Origin: a virus
Length of the DNA: 64,000 nucleotides
Reading direction: 5' to 3' (one strand)
IMG/VR virus record: IMGVR_UViG_3300035182_002586
Span: 1-64,000 of that record
The notes beneath the pieces were generated by a model. The model was given only the letters and a program-made list of their open reading frames with translations, ran no database searches and had not been told where the DNA came from. Positions 46,717-63,204 of this stretch are shown here, in pieces. How positions within the stretch are numbered: the stretch's first letter is position 1; each line of letters starts with the position of its first letter. A program made the position numbers and the translations under genes.

Positions 46717-47685
46717 TCAGCTCTGCGTGCCGGTGACGGCCGGCTTGTCGCCGCCGATACCCACGCCCGCGAGGATCTCGTCCACCGAGGCGCTGCCGTT
46801 CGCCTTGGTCTCCGCCTTCGGGGCCGCCTTGGTCTCGGTCTCCGCCTTCGCGGGGGCCGCCTTGGCCGTCTTCTTCGCGGGGGCCGCCTTGGCCTTCGGG
46901 GCCGCCTTGGCCGCCTTGGCCGCCTTCTTCGCGGGAGCCGCCTTCGGAGCCGCCTTGGCCTTCGCGGGAGCCGTCTTGGCCGCCTTCTTCGCGGGAGCCG
47001 CCTTGGCCTTGATCGGCTTCGGCGACTTCGCAGGCGCCTTGCCGGCCGCCTTGGCCTTGAACTCCTCGTACGCCTTGGCGACGTCGGCGACGACGTTGGG
47101 CTTCACGCGGTAGAAGCCGCGCCCCTTGCCCTCGACGCGCTCGAAGGTCTCCTTGTTCTGCGAGAGCATGTAGCCGATGTACGTCTTCTGATCCGACGTG
47201 TCGGCCTGCCAGCCCTTCTGCTCCAGGAGCGGGACGATCTCGGCCGCGTTCATGGTCTTCTCGCCCATGACCGTCGCGATCGCGACCCGGATGGTCGGAC
47301 GCAGCCCTTCCGCGACCGCCCTGCGACCCGCGGTCGCCCTGCGGTTCAAGGTCTTCGCAGGGGCCGCCTTGGCCTTCGCAGGGGCCGCCTTGGCCGCCTT
47401 CTTCGCCGGGGTCTTGGCCGCCTTCTTCGCCGGGACCGCCGCCTTGGCCTCCACCTTCACGGGAGCCGCCGCCTTGGTCTCGCCCTTCTTGATGCCCATG
47501 TCCACGCCGTAGACGGCATCGAACTTGGCCAGACGATCCTGCGCCGTCTTGGAGACCGTCTTGGCCTCGTTGTACTGCGGGACGAGCTTCTCGATGCGGG
47601 TCTTGAGATCCGCCTCGACTTTGGCCGCCTGCTGCACTTCCTTCACGTGGTCGGCGCGCAGCTTCTTGAGCGTATTTGCATCCAT
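46717..47685 (-). CDS. Histone H1-like protein with central winged-helix-like domain
   Basis: A 322-aa basic protein. Residues about 1-70 are a coiled-coil-like helix region. Two Lys/Ala/Pro-rich arms with AKKAAK and APAK repeats (about 75-115 and 210-300) flank a globular segment (about 118-190: IRVAIATVMGEKTMNAAEIV ... SQNKETFERVEG) that looks like a winged helix. The layout matches bacterial H1-like (HctB/HC1-type) and TIGR-type wHTH proteins that compact DNA. The start at 47685 follows AGAGGAGAG; a leaderless ATG at 47709 (9 nt after TTGTA) is possible. Confidence 0.8.
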   Translation of the reverse strand: MDANTLKKLRADHVKEVQQAAKVEADLKTRIEKLVPQYNEAKTVSKTAQDRLAKFDAVYGVDMGIKKGETKAAAPVKVEAKAAVPAKKAAKTPAKKAAKAAPAKAKAAPAKTLNRRATAGRRAVAEGLRPTIRVAIATVMGEKTMNAAEIVPLLEQKGWQADTSDQKTYIGYMLSQNKETFERVEGKGRGFYRVKPNVVADVAKAYEEFKAKAAGKAPAKSPKPIKAKAAPAKKAAKTAPAKAKAAPKAAPAKKAAKAAKAAPKAKAAPAKKTAKAAPAKAETETKAAPKAETKANGSASVDEILAGVGIGGDKPAVTGTQS

Positions 47686-47718
47686 CTTGATCTCTCCTCT
47701 GTTCTGCATCTGTGACCC

Positions 47719-49882: not shown

Positions 49883-50719
49883 TCAGCGAAGGACGGGAAG
49901 CGAGCGGGTCGTGTTCCGCTTCTTGCCCGAAAGCTCTTGATCTGCGGCGTAACAGTAGGAGCAACCGAAGACGCAGCTCTCGTTGATGGTGAACGGGTCC
50001 ACCATCAGAACACAACCGCAACCCTCGGAAGATGCACGGGGACGGTCAGGCAACGAGAAGTCGTCGGGAGGTGCACACACGACCGACGCCAAATTCGCCA
50101 CCGAGGTAGCCCCCACGAGAGTCCTGTCCTCATTACAGAGCCCGACCGCCACCCCGACGTCGGCTGCCGCTTGGGCGAGCTTCGTCAGAAGGGCAACCTT
50201 AGCCTCCGTACCACGCGTCTCCGCCATCCGGTCGTTGGTCTGGAGGAACGACAGGACAGAGCTGTGGATGCCCATACCCGCCGCTGCGGTGGCGATCTTC
50301 ATGAATCGGTCGACCACGACCTCATCAGGAAGCAGGGGGATCGGGCTGAACCGCCAACGCACGCGATCCACACCGAAGGCTTGGACGACCTGCCGGAGAA
50401 GCTCTACTCCCTGGTCCAGGGTCGGGGCGCCCTTCTCGACTTCCTCCCACCCGGTGAGAGTCATGTGGATGCGCACGTCGTAGGGGCGAAGCATCTGCCG
50501 GTCGCGCACGAGGTTCGTGGGGTCCCTGGTCCAGAAGACCAGGCCGAGCACGTCCTTGGGCTTGAGCGACCACCGGTCCGGCAGGTACTCGTTCTGCGCG
50601 AACGCCGTCATCCACCCCTGCGTGAGCTGAGCCTGGAACCACAACCACTTGGCTGCCGGCACGTCCGTCCAGCGGGAAAGGCTGTACGGCAGATTTGCGT
50701 CCCGACCCGTCTTCACCAT
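49883..50719 (-). CDS. DUF1848-like (radical-SAM-type Fe-S) protein
   Basis: A 278-aa protein. YSLSRWTDVPA near the start, LVFWTRDP, VRWRFSPIP and the C-terminal cysteine cluster ESCVFGCSYCYA fit DUF1848, a family with radical-SAM relatives and an Fe-S cluster site at the C-terminus. The ATG at 50719 is chosen because it sits 10 nt after GGTGTA; a longer start would lie inside the element. Confidence 0.75.
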   Translation of the reverse strand: MVKTGRDANLPYSLSRWTDVPAAKWLWFQAQLTQGWMTAFAQNEYLPDRWSLKPKDVLGLVFWTRDPTNLVRDRQMLRPYDVRIHMTLTGWEEVEKGAPTLDQGVELLRQVVQAFGVDRVRWRFSPIPLLPDEVVVDRFMKIATAAAGMGIHSSVLSFLQTNDRMAETRGTEAKVALLTKLAQAAADVGVAVGLCNEDRTLVGATSVANLASVVCAPPDDFSLPDRPRASSEGCGCVLMVDPFTINESCVFGCSYCYAADQELSGKKRNTTRSLPVLR

Positions 50720-50729
50720 GAACAGCATA

Positions 50730-50735
50730 TACACC
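50730..50735 (-). promoter_or_regulatory. GGTGTA leaderless promoter element
   Basis: CTGGTGTATATG on the minus strand, 10 nt before the ATG at 50719. Confidence 0.6.
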
Positions 50736-51406: not shown

Positions 51407-52297
51407 TCAGGCCGCTACGGCGCGTTTGGAGACGGGCAGGAACTCTGACCCGTACTCGTTCATGAAGCGGAGCAGCCCACCCTGGTCGAGGATGTCCTGG
51501 TAGAACGTGCCCGGGACCGTGGGGTTCATCTCCCACGTGCAAAGGCGCACCGAAGTGGAGATACGGTCCAGCTTCTCGTTGAAGAATCGGTAGAACTGCC
51601 CCTGCTTCTCCCCAGCGCTGGACAGGGCGACCATCGAGGGGCCGGGAAGGCTTGACCCCACCACCGAAGGAAGCACAGCCTGGTAGAGGTCGGTACCACC
51701 ATCGTCGTGGTAGTACGCCATCTCGTCGAAGAGGACGAAGCTGTGCCGCACCCCGCAGAGACCCTTGAACCCGGCTGAACGCACCGTGATTCTCACGGAC
51801 GAGTTGTGGGTCTTGCAACCGCACACACAGTGGTTGGGGCTCGGGATCTGGATGGAGGAGGTCGTCTCCTGCGAGGGGGTGACGTGGCCCTCACGGACCG
51901 CCTTGCGGACCCCTTTCATCATGGTCTGAGCCATGGCGCGGTCGATCGTGAACCCGGCCACCGTCATCGCGCCGGGGTCCCGCTCCGCCTGCGCGAGTGC
52001 CGCCATCGCACGCTGGTAGAGCAGACGTGCCCCGAGGTAGGACTTGCCCGACCGGCGACCCGCTGCGAGGGCAACGAGTTGCTCCTCCGAGTTCACCTCA
52101 CGGGTGTTGGAGCGCCCCTCGTCGTAGAGGTAGACGAGGAAGTCCTTCTCCGTGAACAACCGCACGCGTCCGGTCAGGGGATGGGTGAACTCGACCCGAT
52201 CCGTATCTGACAGAGGAACCCCGTCCAGTACTTTCAAGGCGAATCGCTGACCGGGGTAGAGAGGGTACGCCCTCTCCGCGTGCTCGATGGTGTTCAT
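51407..52297 (-). CDS. Terminase large subunit paralog, ATPase domain only
   Basis: A 296-aa protein starting MNTIEHAERAYPLYPGQRF. It matches the N-terminal half of TerL (61177-63204) in order: YLYDEGRSNTRE, Walker A AAGRRSGKS at residues 78-86, Walker B FVLFDEMAYY (Asp191, Glu192), and the coupling segment GEKQGQFYRFFNEK followed by a TWEMNP stretch. The RNase H-like nuclease domain is entirely missing and the protein ends normally soon after. It also has an extra Cys cluster (CVCGCKTH, ~157-163) that TerL lacks. Probably a duplicated motor domain with a new role. Confidence 0.85.
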   Translation of the reverse strand: MNTIEHAERAYPLYPGQRFALKVLDGVPLSDTDRVEFTHPLTGRVRLFTEKDFLVYLYDEGRSNTREVNSEEQLVALAAGRRSGKSYLGARLLYQRAMAALAQAERDPGAMTVAGFTIDRAMAQTMMKGVRKAVREGHVTPSQETTSSIQIPSPNHCVCGCKTHNSSVRITVRSAGFKGLCGVRHSFVLFDEMAYYHDDGGTDLYQAVLPSVVGSSLPGPSMVALSSAGEKQGQFYRFFNEKLDRISTSVRLCTWEMNPTVPGTFYQDILDQGGLLRFMNEYGSEFLPVSKRAVAA

Positions 52298-52307
52298 GCA
52301 GAAGGTC

Positions 52308-53165
52308 TCAGTGCCAGACGGAGTGGTGAACGTCGTAGTCCACCTTGTTGCTCTTGAGCCAATCACTGAACTTGGCCCAGGCGATCGACTTGAGGGCGCC
52401 CGGGTTCTCCTTGAGGAGCTTGTAGAGCTTGCGAGCGCTCGTCGGCTTGCCCTCGTAGAGCGTGTAGTGAGGGTCACCGCTGTGGCCCATGTCGGAGTCC
52501 GGCGAGTAAGCGGACCACTTCGTCCACTCGATGTGGACCGTGAAGTCCTTGCCCTCGGCGTTGAACGGGTCGACGTTCTCCGGAGTCACCTCCAGGAAGT
52601 AGACCTGCTGCTCCCACCAAGAGGTGCGACGAAGGAAGTCCCACGACCCAGGCTTGACGCCCTGGATCGCGTCGGCCTTCTTGATCACCTCGTCGGCAGC
52701 GTCCGCCATCCCCTGGCTGACCTTTTCCTTCACCTGGTCGTAGGTATCCGACGCGGAGATGTGCTGCCTCCGGATGATGTTGTCCGGAATGAAGGCGTCG
52801 AAGTTACCGTGCTGGCTGAAGTGCAGGTTGGTCTGCACCGTCGCGACACGGAGCTTGCGCTTGCCCTTCATCGGCAGCTCTTCCAGCTTCCACTGGTCGT
52901 GCGTCCACGAGAGGCGGAAGTCCTTGCCGACGAGCTTGCCGTCCCACGAGCCCTGGAGGAACTTCGCTGCGACGCGGACCGCTGCCCCACCGTTCGTGAG
53001 CCCCGACGCTTGCTTCGTCAGGTACTCGTCCTGGTGGCAGGAGTCCGAGCCCGGGTTGACGTTCTTGCAGTAGATCGACCATGCGGTCGCCCATGCCTGC
53101 TCGTCCGAGTAGGACGGGTTGCCTTCCTTCACTTCCTTGAAGTAGTCGTCGACAGGCTTCGGCAT
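52308..53165 (-). CDS. Putative virion protein (285 aa)
   Basis: MPKPVDDYFKEVKEGN start; the N-terminal domain with two conserved-looking cysteines (IYCKN, DSCHQD) recalls a small domain found at the N-terminus of several phage structural proteins. An internal VRVAAKFLQG resembles the RVAARF motif of neighbours. The C-terminal part has a helix-rich segment (ARKLYKLLKEN). Virion assignment is by position and resemblance. Confidence 0.65.
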   Translation of the reverse strand: MPKPVDDYFKEVKEGNPSYSDEQAWATAWSIYCKNVNPGSDSCHQDEYLTKQASGLTNGGAAVRVAAKFLQGSWDGKLVGKDFRLSWTHDQWKLEELPMKGKRKLRVATVQTNLHFSQHGNFDAFIPDNIIRRQHISASDTYDQVKEKVSQGMADAADEVIKKADAIQGVKPGSWDFLRRTSWWEQQVYFLEVTPENVDPFNAEGKDFTVHIEWTKWSAYSPDSDMGHSGDPHYTLYEGKPTSARKLYKLLKENPGALKSIAWAKFSDWLKSNKVDYDVHHSVWH

Positions 53166-54554: not shown

Positions 54555-55877
54555 TCAACCCGTCGCTTCGGCCGGCGTAACGACGATGAGAGGGCGACGC
54601 GTGACCTCCGCCGCCTTCTCGCCTTTCACGACATCCGCCGTAACGGTGATCGAAGCGATCGTCGCGTCGCTAGGGGCATCGAACGAGTAGGGGCGAAGCA
54701 GGTCCTCGACGATCGACCGGAGGGCTCGGGCACCCGTCGGACGCGACTTCGCGAGGCGGCCGATCTCCAAGAGTGCGTCGTCCGTGAACACGAGGTCGAT
54801 GTTGTCGTAGGCAAAGAGGGCTCGGAACTGCTTGATGATCGAGTGCTTCGGCTCCGTGAGGACGCGCACCATGTCCGTGTCCGTCAGCGGGAGCGTCGAC
54901 GTGCGGACCGGGAGGCGGCCGAGCAGCTCGGGGATGATCCCGAAGTCCAGGATGTCCTCCTCCGTGATCGCCGAGTACACGTCGGTGAGGTCGAGCTTGC
55001 GCTTCGTACTCTCGTTGGCCCCGAAGCCCAAACGGGAACTCTTGTTGATGCGACGGTCGACCGTCTCCTGGATACCGTCGAACGACCCCGCGCAGACGAA
55101 CAGCACGTTGGTGGTGTCCAGCATGTCGAGGCTCGGTTTGGCCGTCCCGTCCGCGCCGATCGTGATGACAGTGCCGCCCTTCCCCATGCCGCGAGGCACC
55201 GGGACCATCGAGCCCTCGATGAGCTTGAGGAGGGACTGCTGCACGCCCTCTCCGCTCACGTCTCGGTAGCCGGAGGCGCCGCGCCCCGACTTGCGCGCGA
55301 GCTTGTCGAACTCGTCGATGAAAATGATGCCCCACTGCGCCTTCTCCGGGTCGCCGTTGGCCGCCTGGAGGAGCCCCTGGAGCATGCTCTCCACGTCGTC
55401 CCCCACGTATCCCGCCTGCGTCAGGCGGGTCGCATCGGCCACGTAGAAGGGCACCTTGAGCATCCGGGCGATGGCCCGGAACAGCTCGGTCTTGCCCGTA
55501 CCGGAGGGCCCGAGGAGCATGATGTTGCTCTTCTGGATCTCGACCCCTTCGGCCTTCTCGATCTTCGCGGCACGAGCACGGTCTCGCCGCTTGAAGTGGT
55601 TGTAGACCGCGACGGCCACGTCCTGCTTCGCTCGCTCTTGGGCGATGACGTGCTGGTCGAGAAACGCCTTGATCTCCCGGGGCTTGCGGAGCGGCTCTTC
55701 CTTGACCGTGGCCTTCTGACGGTGACGGTTCTCCGCCTCCATCGCCTCAGCGATCTCCCCGTTGCAACGGTCGCAGATCAGGACTTCGCCGCCCTGCTTG
55801 AGCGGTGCCGCGATGAGGTTGCGCACCTCGTTGCTGGCACGGTGGCAGACGTTACAGCGAAGGATCTCGTTGGCCAT
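54555..55877 (-). CDS. clpX: ClpX-type AAA+ unfoldase
   Basis: A complete 440-aa ClpX: N-terminal zinc-binding domain (Cys8, Cys11, Cys35, Cys38), Walker A GPSGTGKT (123-130), pore loop GYVG (156-159), Walker B IIFIDEFD (184-191), RKSGRG, and a sensor region. The ClpP-binding loop reads LGF (residues 283-285), compared with IGF in most bacterial ClpX, so it could dock on ClpP. The phage may direct host proteolysis or unfold virion proteins. It is between virion-type genes and a promoter lies upstream. Confidence 0.92.
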   Translation of the reverse strand: MANEILRCNVCHRASNEVRNLIAAPLKQGGEVLICDRCNGEIAEAMEAENRHRQKATVKEEPLRKPREIKAFLDQHVIAQERAKQDVAVAVYNHFKRRDRARAAKIEKAEGVEIQKSNIMLLGPSGTGKTELFRAIARMLKVPFYVADATRLTQAGYVGDDVESMLQGLLQAANGDPEKAQWGIIFIDEFDKLARKSGRGASGYRDVSGEGVQQSLLKLIEGSMVPVPRGMGKGGTVITIGADGTAKPSLDMLDTTNVLFVCAGSFDGIQETVDRRINKSSRLGFGANESTKRKLDLTDVYSAITEEDILDFGIIPELLGRLPVRTSTLPLTDTDMVRVLTEPKHSIIKQFRALFAYDNIDLVFTDDALLEIGRLAKSRPTGARALRSIVEDLLRPYSFDAPSDATIASITVTADVVKGEKAAEVTRRPLIVVTPAEATG

Positions 55878-59835: not shown

Positions 59836-60354
59836 CTAGATGATGGTCTGAATCCCGAGGAACTGCCGGTTAATGGTGCTTGGAACCTGCGCTACGAACC
59901 CAACAGGGAGGGCCGGCGCCCTTGGATCTGCGGTGAGAGACAGCTCGTCTTCTTTGGTGAAGAGGCCGCGAAGGCTAAAGTAAAGCTCCTCCTGCGATCC
60001 GTAAAGGAGGGGAACGAGCGGACCCCCTCCAATCCTCGATGCGTACGTGTAGCGCTCGTACGAAGACGTGGAAATCAGGCTCGATCCCGAGACCATGACT
60101 CCGTACTTGTACGTGGGAAACTGGCGCGTCGACGCGATGTACTGGTCCGCCGGCTCGTCGCTCCCCCACAGGAGAAAGCCCCCAAAGCGCCCGGAAGAGT
60201 AGGTCACTACCCGGTCGTCCACCGACACGTCGACCCACTCGACGCCCTGACCCCCCGGCCACCCGTTGTTCACCATCGCCTGCGAGACCGTGACGGCGTA
60301 GATGTCCCCCCTCACGAGGAGCACACAGTCACGGGAACGAAGGATCTCGGGCAT
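59836..60354 (-). CDS. Unknown virion-region protein (172 aa), paralog of the next gene
   Basis: Shares the body of the next gene: both open MxExxRSRDxxxLxRG, have a GGFLLWGSDE / AGFMIWGSNE segment, ERYTYASRIGGGPLVPL, a GLF/GLW-T segment and end with IQT. The shared body points to tandem duplication. Beta-rich; a head, tail or fiber-associated role is plausible but unproven. Confidence 0.8.
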   Translation of the reverse strand: MPEILRSRDCVLLVRGDIYAVTVSQAMVNNGWPGGQGVEWVDVSVDDRVVTYSSGRFGGFLLWGSDEPADQYIASTRQFPTYKYGVMVSGSSLISTSSYERYTYASRIGGGPLVPLLYGSQEELYFSLRGLFTKEDELSLTADPRAPALPVGFVAQVPSTINRQFLGIQTII

Positions 60355-60363
60355 CGGTAGTCC

Positions 60364-60885
60364 TCAGAACGAGGTTTGAATCGTGATGTAGTTGGAGGTA
60401 ACCCCTGTGGGGGACTGCGAGACGAACCCCACGATGTTCTCGTTCGGGGCTCGAATGTCCCCCGACAGTGCCCACTCGTCCTCCACTGTCCAGAGGCCCC
60501 GGAGGCTGAACCTGAGGTGGTCACTGGCCGTGTAGGTGAGCGGAACCAGAGGGCCGCCACCCGTACGTGAGGCGTACGTGTAGCGCTCGAACGCCACGGT
60601 CATGATGAGCCAGCGTCCGAAGGCCATCGTACCCGCACGGTACGTGGGCTGGTTCATTGTCATCGACGTGAACTGGTCGGCCGACTCGTTCGACCCCCAG
60701 ATCATGAAGCCCGCCACCTCCCCATCGGAGAGTTCGACCTCGAAGTCGTCCTTCGTGGACCCTGCCCACCGAACCCCGGTCCCACCTACCCACCCGGCAG
60801 TGGACATGGAGCTGGACAAGGTGGGCGTGATCGAGCGTCCCCGGGAGAGGATGATCAGATCACGGGATCGCGGGTTCTCGGACAT
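60364..60885 (-). CDS. Unknown virion-region protein (173 aa), paralog of the previous gene
   Basis: Same architecture as the 59836-60354 product, with which it aligns nearly end to end by eye (ERYTYASRTGGGPLVPL here). It precedes its paralog by 9 nt on the transcript. Coupled to the upstream 85-aa gene by a 1-nt overlap. Confidence 0.8.
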   Translation of the reverse strand: MSENPRSRDLIILSRGRSITPTLSSSMSTAGWVGGTGVRWAGSTKDDFEVELSDGEVAGFMIWGSNESADQFTSMTMNQPTYRAGTMAFGRWLIMTVAFERYTYASRTGGGPLVPLTYTASDHLRFSLRGLWTVEDEWALSGDIRAPNENIVGFVSQSPTGVTSNYITIQTSF

Positions 60886-61176: not shown

Positions 61177-63204
61177 TTACCGGCGGAACCGGAGACCGAG
61201 GCTCTTCGGGACGGCCCGCTCCGAGAAACCCCCGTGCATACGGGCTCGGGAGAGCTGATAGGCCCCCGTTCCCGCCGCCCGCGAGATGGTCGGTGTGGCT
61301 GTTGCTCCGTAAAGCGCGCGCCCTTGACCGAGCCTCTCCACAGAGAGCCAGACCGAACGTACAAGGGCGTCGCTCATGTCGTCGTGCTTGCCCTTCGGGG
61401 CCTCGACTTCGACGATGTTCTTGCTCACCTGCTCGGCTTGGAGAGTCATCAGCTCTGTGATGAGCGGGGAGTGCTTCAAGTTGTCCCCCACGCCTGCCGG
61501 GGGCGGCCAGTCGTAGAGACGAAGCTTGCGGTCGTACATGAGCAGCTTCGTCGCCTGGAACATCTGCGACGTGTCCATCTTCTGGAAACGCTCAGACCGG
61601 AACTGCTTGAGGCCGCGCTTGTGGAGGTTCTGCTCCAGTGAGAGCCCCTCCCACCGGTCGAAGATGACGTCGGTGATGTAGAAGCGCCTGCACATCACCT
61701 CCATCCAGTTGGCGATCTCGTCGAAGTCGAGGCGCTCCACGTCCCGGAGCGTGCGTGCGTACGGCGTCGTGAACTCGGTCAGGTGGGGGTTGGACTCCCG
61801 CCAGTCCGTACCCGCGTACCAGACCTCGTGATAGTCGATGACGATCACGTCGTCTTCCACGTGGGAAAGCACGAAGGCCGTACCGTCGCCGACAGCCGCG
61901 ACGTCGAGACCGCCCTGGTGCGGTGCCCGGGGGATGCCCTGGAGCCTCGGGCGATGCTCGGGGTCAATACAGGCGAGGAGGTCCTCGGGGCGTTCGATCC
62001 ACCCGCGCATACGGTCGGAGAAGCGCGCCCCGTGCTCCACCATGAAGCTGTTCGGGTCCGCGTGGAACCGCTGCCGGTAGTAGCTGATGGGGACCGACGG
62101 GTTGATCTCCCACGTCGGCATCTGGAGAGCGAGCATGTTCTCGGACCCCTCTCCCCTCGACATCGCGAGGTTGAAGAGGTCGAAGAACTGTCCCTGCTTG
62201 TTCAGGGGGGACGAGATGCAGATGATGCGGCTCTCGACCGGGTAGTCCGTCCCGTCGGGGTGCTTGAGCACCATCCCGTCCGGACCCTTCGGAGAGAAGG
62301 TCGCTGCGGAGGGCTGGACCGCCTTGTATATCTCCTCGGCCGAGGACCCACCTTCGTCGATGAAGTGAGCCATCTCGTCGAGGATGATGACGATGTTGCC
62401 CATACCACGGAGGCCCTTCGCGATACAGGGGCGGAACGTGACCCTGATCGAGGACTTGCCGTTGTAGCTGACGAACTTCCCGTCGGCGTGGCGGTTGTAC
62501 GTGCCGAAGGTGTCGAGGTCGAACGGTGTCTGGAGGTCTACGAACGTCTTGTTGTCGGAGAGCTTGTACGGGTGGAAGTACTCGCACCGCGCCATGTGAT
62601 TCGAGACTTCGCGGAAGAGAATCGCCGCCTGCTCCTTATCGGTAGCGACGCTGACGATCTGGATGGTGTTACCGTCCGGGAGACCGTAGTACTCCTGGGG
62701 GTTGTACATATTCAAGAGGCGGTAGACCTCGTACGAGGCGAAGATCGACGAGAGCATGGTCTTGCCCCCGCGACGCCCGATGGCGAGCACCAGCTCGCGT
62801 CGTTCGTGGTCCTGCTCTCGGATGTTGCAGCGTCCCTCGTCATAGAGGTGCCGCAGGTACTCCACCTCCGTGAAACGCCCTACGAGGTTCTCACGGAACA
62901 TGTCCCAGATCTCGATCGTCTTCTCCTTGTCATCGAGAGGGATGTGGTAGTAGAGCTTCACAATGAAGCGCTGGACTGGATAGAGCTTCCGATCCAGACC
63001 CCACTTGGACTCGATGTAGTCGATGACTGAGAAGATCTTGGGCTTCTTCGGCTGCGCCTGTCCTGTTGGGACGGGCATCATGGACGCGAGGTAGTCGTCG
63101 ACCTGAGGATCCTCGGTCCCGGTCCTCTCTGCTTCGACTTTGGCTTCTTGTGCGGCTTGGCGGAATAGCCCCGCCATCCCGCTGCCGCGTTTCGTGGCTG
63201 CCAT
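61177..63204 (-). CDS. Terminase large subunit (DNA packaging motor)
   Basis: A 675-aa TerL. ATPase domain: Walker A AIGRRGGKT (141-149), Walker B IVIILDEMAH (Asp276, Glu277), coupling segment LNKQGQFFDLF followed by a TWEINP stretch. Nuclease domain (RNase H fold): GLDVAAVGDG near residue 427, VIFDRWEG, and the C-terminal KHDDMSDALVRSV. The motor cuts and pumps DNA into proheads. The gene precedes the portal region as usual in tailed phages. It has an ATPase-only paralog at 51407-52297. Confidence 0.95.
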   Translation of the reverse strand: MAATKRGSGMAGLFRQAAQEAKVEAERTGTEDPQVDDYLASMMPVPTGQAQPKKPKIFSVIDYIESKWGLDRKLYPVQRFIVKLYYHIPLDDKEKTIEIWDMFRENLVGRFTEVEYLRHLYDEGRCNIREQDHERRELVLAIGRRGGKTMLSSIFASYEVYRLLNMYNPQEYYGLPDGNTIQIVSVATDKEQAAILFREVSNHMARCEYFHPYKLSDNKTFVDLQTPFDLDTFGTYNRHADGKFVSYNGKSSIRVTFRPCIAKGLRGMGNIVIILDEMAHFIDEGGSSAEEIYKAVQPSAATFSPKGPDGMVLKHPDGTDYPVESRIICISSPLNKQGQFFDLFNLAMSRGEGSENMLALQMPTWEINPSVPISYYRQRFHADPNSFMVEHGARFSDRMRGWIERPEDLLACIDPEHRPRLQGIPRAPHQGGLDVAAVGDGTAFVLSHVEDDVIVIDYHEVWYAGTDWRESNPHLTEFTTPYARTLRDVERLDFDEIANWMEVMCRRFYITDVIFDRWEGLSLEQNLHKRGLKQFRSERFQKMDTSQMFQATKLLMYDRKLRLYDWPPPAGVGDNLKHSPLITELMTLQAEQVSKNIVEVEAPKGKHDDMSDALVRSVWLSVERLGQGRALYGATATPTISRAAGTGAYQLSRARMHGGFSERAVPKSLGLRFRR

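Follow-up and report, generated by a model that had tools for sequence, protein, structure and literature searches.

The P0001 gene and its relation to the TerL of the same window

The window analysed here covers bases 1-64000 of a virus record of 528,957 bases and carries two genes related to the large terminase TerL (Table 1). One of them, P0001, whose product runs from MNTIEH to AVAA, lies ~9 kb from the other, P0002, which encodes a complete TerL. P0001 is an open frame with a coding signature like that of the reference genes. Its codon score is 0.38 in frame, where nine of the window's genes used as reference range from 0.37 to 0.80, while the other five frames of the stretch score -0.24 to -1.14; the upstream and downstream neighbours of P0001 reach 0.67 and 0.00, respectively. 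The downstream neighbour matched none of the 15 other records searched, and we found no known packaging gene directly adjoining P0001. We dropped the reading of P0001 as a defence protein, since a PADLOC search for such proteins gave no match for P0001, for the two paralogs P0003 and P0005 described below, or for four neighbours. Between the window's TerL and the portal gene, two related genes of ~172 aa lie in tandem (59836-60354 and 60364-60885); record G016, which is described below, holds three tandem genes of this kind. Elsewhere in the window, 46717-47709 encodes a 330-aa Lys/Ala-rich protein with AAKAAPAK-type repeats, which we would liken to a histone H1 tail.

Table 1 Coordinates of P0001, its sequence features and the surrounding genes in the window.
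Feature	Position	Strand	Remark
ATPase-only TerL homolog (P0001, 296 aa)	51407..52297	(-)	by homology and fold
Walker A / P-loop with cis arginines, GRRSGKS	52040..52060	(-)	residues 80-86, intact
Extra Cys/His cluster, HCVCGCKTH	51806..51832	(-)	residues 156-164
Codon 181 (TGC, Cys)	51755..51757	(-)	aligned with the arginine of TerL LRG (P74-26 R139)
Walker B, LFDEM	51719..51733	(-)	residues 189-193, intact
C-motif, SSAG	51611..51622	(-)	residues 226-229
Full-length TerL (P0002, 675 aa)	61177..63204	(-)	ATPase and nuclease
Upstream neighbour	52308..53165	(-)	10 bases from P0001; slot marked by its homologs (44-48%) in G009, G010 and G011
Downstream neighbour, 211 aa	50764..51399	(-)	Cys-rich, within the variable slot
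DUF1848 gene (PF08902)	49883..50734	(-)	opposite slot edge

In a BLASTP comparison with the window's own TerL, P0001 showed 97/326 identities (30%, 117 bits, E 8e-34) over TerL residues 74-395. It carries the blocks YDEGRSNTRE, GRRSGKS, LFDEMA (ILDEMA in TerL), KQGQF and TWEMNP, and its lid motifs TWE-NP and EYG-F remain TerL-like. PHROGs assigns the protein to TerL (PHROG_2, E 4.5e-10), and in Pfam and NCBIfam it matches nothing. A profile of the ATPase half, built from 17 clade TerLs with P0001 excluded, recovers it at E 2e-33. The P0001 frame stops at the ATPase/nuclease boundary, and the RNase H-like nuclease domain is absent. When we searched all six frames of the window with a nuclease-half profile, TerL itself was the only match (next best E 0.7), and no nuclease remnant was found downstream of P0001 within the window. 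With P0002 as the query, its own 528,957-base record gave no match up to E 10 besides P0002 itself and P0001. Judged by these comparisons, P0001 is a nuclease-free TerL ATPase homolog encoded alongside an intact TerL. An earlier reading, made from the letters alone (the sequence-only reading), had aligned 51407-52297 by eye with the N-terminal half of TerL and had described an end without nuclease domain and an extra cysteine cluster. Its coordinates are exact, all blocks that it named are present, and the missing domain and the cluster are both real; the profile comparison that it had proposed as a check also recovers the protein.

The ATP site, the finger position and the Cys/His cluster

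To describe the active site, we picked a set of cis ATP-site residues from textbook motifs (Q17, R81, R82, K85, D191, E192, S226 and S227). P0001 retains 8/8 of these, compared to 47 of the 102 columns that are conserved in 25 clade TerLs (hypergeometric P 0.0014). The Walker A T/S was left out of this test, because its column is not among the conserved ones.

The arginine finger position is altered in P0001: the GLRG that stands ahead of Walker B in TerL reads GLCG. According to our alignment, C181 of P0001 sits at the position of R139, which is described as the trans arginine finger of P74-26 TerL in the accessible parts of PMC5727402 and PMC7196598. PDB entry 4znj (R139A) has LAG where the wild type has LRG and thus concerns the same arginine. 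The finger column holds Arg in 115 of 117 distinct TerL sequences, the exceptions being one Val and one gap. This count derives from the profile alignment (Arg in 122/124 rows) after dropping seven rows that differ from another only at the first residue; counting with a regular expression gave Arg in 115/122, with six unmatched. The replacement in P0001 amounts to one codon in one metagenomic assembly, and R184, three residues past C181, might act as a substitute finger. In addition, the finger position is not universal among TerLs, because the D6E finger (R158) is located elsewhere in the fold (PMC5727402, in part) and HK97 TerL seems to do without a classical finger (PMC9410871, in part).

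The Cys/His cluster lies ~20 residues before the altered finger and has the spacing H156 C157 x C159 x C161 x2 H164, to which C181 may be added; that it binds a metal is a guess. An AlphaFold2 model of P0001, computed from a 34-row alignment, reached a pLDDT of 88.3 and a pTM of 0.88. In VIA-align, which here represents a second look at Foldseek's own matches, the model aligned with the ATPase domain of P74-26 TerL (4znl) with a Z of 22.4 and an rmsd of 2.9 over 225 residues. A sequence search of solved structures with A3 found P74-26 TerL alone below E 0.01.

Other ATPase-only paralogs and the descent of P0001

We searched 105 distinct records besides that of the window, many of them fragments and some near copies of each other, for a second TerL homolog. 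Nine were searched with P0001, 50 with profile A1 and 50 with A2, four being shared between the first two; the A2 records cover 50 of the 80 listed loci, the rest having been seen earlier or set aside because they were duplicates or short. Two of the 105 contain a second TerL homolog of the ATPase-only kind, namely G027 (IMGVR_UViG_3300009031_000221, 536,053 bases) and G016 (IMGVR_UViG_3300020021_000004, 86,248 bases). The paralog of G027, P0005 (343 aa), lies ~165 kb from the TerL of that record (653 aa), to which it is 46.8% identical. It keeps Walker K, D and E as well as the finger and is apparently intact. The Walker A T/S is Gly in P0005; the idea that this renders the copy catalytically damaged was dropped, since four TerL rows also have Gly. 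P0005 terminates in the Cys-rich CCPQCGCELA (L106:9770-9815), while the Cys/His cluster of P0001 lies elsewhere.

The paralog of G016, P0003 (290 aa from the first start codon), is located between a TerS-like gene and TerL (666 aa). Its Walker A Lys is replaced by Met and its Walker B Glu by Asn, while the finger is retained. As far as its residues tell, P0003 is Walker-dead, and loss of ATP-site residues does occur in this group. A possible start of the gene (L053:1987-2835) is an ATG that shares bases with the stop codon of the TerS-like gene (ATGA), and the protein would then begin MNRRSFMQMLGLTSALPLVAG. We take this start to resemble a Tat signal, which would be odd for a terminase relative.

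Wider searches yielded few comparable cases. Full TerLs are found at 81 of 83 further loci (L112-L194), the viral part of which represents 80 out of the 351 stretches confirmed; the remaining two loci hold P0005, which thus reappears, and an ORF of 480 aa without a nuclease-profile match at its C-terminus. For close P0001 homologs in viral_contigs, 54 pattern stretches gave 0 confirmed, near-identical records possibly lying outside the scan, and P0003 had no match there beyond its own contig. Among INPHARED phages, three records match P0001 at one place each; this place is annotated as TerL in two S-CBS4 records and lies inside a full TerL ORF in LR745208.1. A scan of genome contigs with A2 gave three loci, none of them an ATPase-only ORF like P0001. 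No neighbour genes were common to P0001 and P0005 in the stretch compared.

For all trees, TerL rows were trimmed to their first 430-470 residues after ORFs of >900 aa and duplicate or partial loci had been removed. In the tree of TerL ATPase domains, P0001 falls inside a huge-phage TerL clade that also contains the window's own TerL (34 rows, 93/91). Its branch measures 7.76 changes per column compared to a median end branch of 0.20 in a reduced tree, from which P0003 and 12 distant or long rows were omitted, and 2.9 compared to 0.22 in the 55-row tree. P0001 and P0003 unite in the full 55-row tree (83/92), where the program flags a meeting of long branches. The reduced tree places P0001 beside L069 (81/62) and P0005 together with its own TerL within a group of 17 rows (93/95). 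We dropped the view that the three small paralogs form one family, as the P0001-P0003 join is a flagged meeting of long branches and the reduced tree places P0001 apart from P0005. A tree constrained to pair P0001 with the window's own TerL is worse by 1.07 log units (p-AU 0.465), the unconstrained tree placing P0001 elsewhere. Further AU tests gave 0.373 for P0001 with a 15-row TerL group and 0.283 for P0001 with P0005; P0003, in a tree without P0001 and the same 12 rows, gave 0.072 with its own TerL and 0.159 with the 15-row group, and in that tree a 17-row set around P0005 is marked. None of the pairings tried is rejected. Sisterhood of P0001 and its own TerL is thus neither shown nor rejected, and a recent in-genome duplication is not supported by the sequences, though not rejected by them either.

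The 15 clade TerL ORFs of >900 aa (L009, L010, L011, L081, L086, L087, L088, L094, L097, L098, L100, L101, L102, L178 and L192) merit a separate remark. Thirteen of them carry the P-loop GRRxxKC, a pattern that L009 and L081 lack, and in those showing two match pieces the TerL match breaks near the P-loop. This is the pattern expected of an intein inserted right after the Walker A Lys.

The window's own TerL is 55-59% identical to the TerLs of five relatives (L005, L006, L041, L045 and L046), and no second TerL copy was found in the records of these five. It groups with L041, L045 and L046 in the 55-row tree (88/69), a grouping that is unresolved in the reduced tree; judged by length and scores, L044 of G009 and L041 carry the same TerL ORF. 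G009, G010 and G011 hold the TerLs nearest to that of the window, with one TerL match in each of these possibly incomplete records. In all three, synteny around P0001 extends over the ClpX-like gene and the homologs of 52308-53165 and then over DUF1848 and further genes, while the stretch from the 52308 homolog to DUF1848 is filled by other ORFs. Four 12-kb stretches, taken from these three records and from G036, in which the gene arrangement differs, were scanned with the ATPase profile and gave no match up to E 10. Since the edges are syntenic and no TerL-like ATPase was found between them in the three relatives, P0001 appears to occupy a variable slot. Synteny with the window also extends over the TerL-portal block of G001 and G002, but no gene from around P0001 turned up in the flanks examined there. 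P0001 looks like accessory cargo, and the variable slot together with the fast divergence would fit cargo better than a core part. The ClpX-like AAA+ gene (54555-55877), which matches PF07724 above the cut-off and the N-terminal zinc-finger PF06689 below it, is matched by homologs at the corresponding syntenic position of G009, G010 and G011.

These results divide the earlier claim of a duplicated TerL motor. A nuclease-free ATPase homolog with an intact cis ATP site does stand beside an intact TerL, but its origin by duplication within this genome finds no support in the AU test, in an identity of 30% compared to 55-59% between the window's TerL and those of the five relatives, or in the variable slot. 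The tree that the sequence-only reading had suggested places P0001 inside the huge-phage TerL clade and neither shows nor rejects its sisterhood with the window's own TerL; a comparable pair of genes, which it had proposed to look for in related genomes, occurs in G027 and G016 but was not found in the records of the five relatives.

Possible roles of P0001 and known systems

The usual picture of a packaging motor is a homomeric ring built from a single TerL. We tentatively favour the reading, to which we give somewhat less than an even chance, that P0001 is an accessory, ATP-binding TerL-like ATPase-domain subunit that modulates or poisons such motors. The mechanism that we infer is as follows. 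P0001 would bind ATP and could join a ring of TerL subunits, sit on it as a cap, or compete with these subunits for the sites at which they dock. Within a ring, a subunit without finger could not trigger ATP hydrolysis in its neighbour, and lacking the nuclease/translocation domain it could neither cut nor grip DNA through that domain. Packaging would be slowed, gated or poisoned, because such a subunit would bind ATP but could not fire the neighbouring one. The target might be the phage's own motor, with P0001 as a regulator, or the motor of a co-infecting relative, with P0001 as a competition factor. According to the accessible part of PMC8589836, T4 motors still run with inactive subunits, but with reduced engagement of DNA, more failures and lower speed, while lambda motors are reported as strictly coordinated.

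The recurrence of ATPase-only paralogs in two other clade records favours the view of P0001 as cargo and brake. However, these paralogs do not share its lesion, as P0005 keeps the finger and P0003 keeps it as well while having lost Walker K and E; the three thus give no sign of a common mechanism. A broader idea, which appears doubtful to us, is that huge phages repeatedly capture TerL motor domains, lose the nuclease from them and in some cases inactivate the ATPase, at different points. The products would be dedicated motor-poisoning subunits, acting as natural heteromeric brakes or as anti-rival weapons against the packaging motor. P0001 itself may be a spare motor part turned regulator or spoiler. 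The earlier suggestion that it is kept for a different job, for example as a regulator or a subunit of mixed pentamers, is a plausible inference, strengthened by the arginine-finger change, which had escaped that reading.

Two serious rivals to the brake or poison reading are a re-purposed ATPase and a decaying remnant. P0001 could be a captured TerL motor domain that performs an ATP-driven task outside packaging, the Cys/His cluster being a new site for a metal or a partner. The very long branch, the position of the new cluster near the altered finger, the loss of conserved non-catalytic residues while the cis ATP residues stay, and the lack of a known packaging gene directly beside P0001 would suit such neofunctionalisation, but the overall fold and the lid motifs are still TerL-like and nothing positive points to another function, so that we consider it rather unlikely. 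We regard it as unlikely that P0001 is a TerL copy, captured or duplicated, that is decaying and has no function. Its open frame with a coding signature like that of reference genes, its predicted fold of high confidence and the absence of a nuclease remnant downstream argue against this, and the retention of all eight cis residues, though more than half of the conserved columns changed, speaks against plain decay. Decay would, on the other hand, account for the sporadic occurrence, with no other record holding P0001 at close range, for the fast evolution and the lost finger, and it has a parallel in the G016 paralog, which lost Walker A Lys and Walker B Glu.

A positive role in the motor, in which an ATPase-only subunit aids loading or driving, is very unlikely. 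It could be modelled on the isolated ATPase domain of D6E, which forms pentamers with a ~60-fold higher kcat than the full-length protein (PMC5727402, in part), and P0005 with its K, D, E and finger would be compatible with it; but P0001 is without finger, T4 translocation requires the C-terminal domain (PMC8589836, in part), and no copy was found in the nearest relatives. We find it hardly credible that P0001 represents the N-terminal part of a split terminase whose nuclease is encoded separately. Phage phiPDS1 offers a precedent, and the listings include short TerL PHROGs of 213-315 positions as well as BFVD entries 235-331 aa long, but the window holds a complete TerL with nuclease, no nuclease piece was found, and the record has no further P0002 match beyond TerL and P0001.

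Under the reading that we favour, P0001 would be a candidate means of regulating the packaging of a >500 kb genome or of sabotaging co-infecting phages. A natural ATPase-only relative with an intact cis site and no finger Arg would also provide a ready-made test of what the coordination of subunits needs. Even as mere captured debris, P0001 would still document that huge phages have repeatedly lost the nuclease domain from TerL.

In the open-access literature, judged largely by titles and abstracts, we recognised no description of a complete TerL accompanied by an ATPase-only paralog. An overview of jumbo phages presents TerL as universal and with both domains (PMC7824862, in part). In phiPDS1, a single TerL is split into two CDS, one per domain (PMC10773633, in part), whereas the window holds a complete one. 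The Xanthomonas jumbo phages XaC1 and XbC2 carry tandem 'large terminase homologs' (PMC11273794, in part), which, compared by description alone, are possibly split-TerL-like ORFs holding part of TerL. Among the paralogs found here, P0005 resembles P0001 in ending at the equivalent ATPase/nuclease boundary with a full TerL elsewhere in the record, but it is much less diverged from its own TerL, keeps the finger and has a CCPQCGC tail. P0003 is likewise ATPase-only beside a full TerL and differs in its location between a TerS-like gene and TerL, its lost Walker K and E and its retained finger. P0001 is encoded ~9 kb from the full TerL in a variable slot, and it departs from P74-26 TerL in lacking the nuclease domain, in the Cys at the R139 equivalent and in the extra Cys/His cluster. 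With the ATPase domain of P74-26 TerL (4znl, 4zni) it shares the ASCE fold, the cis arginines of the P-loop, the DE of Walker B, the C-motif and the lid.
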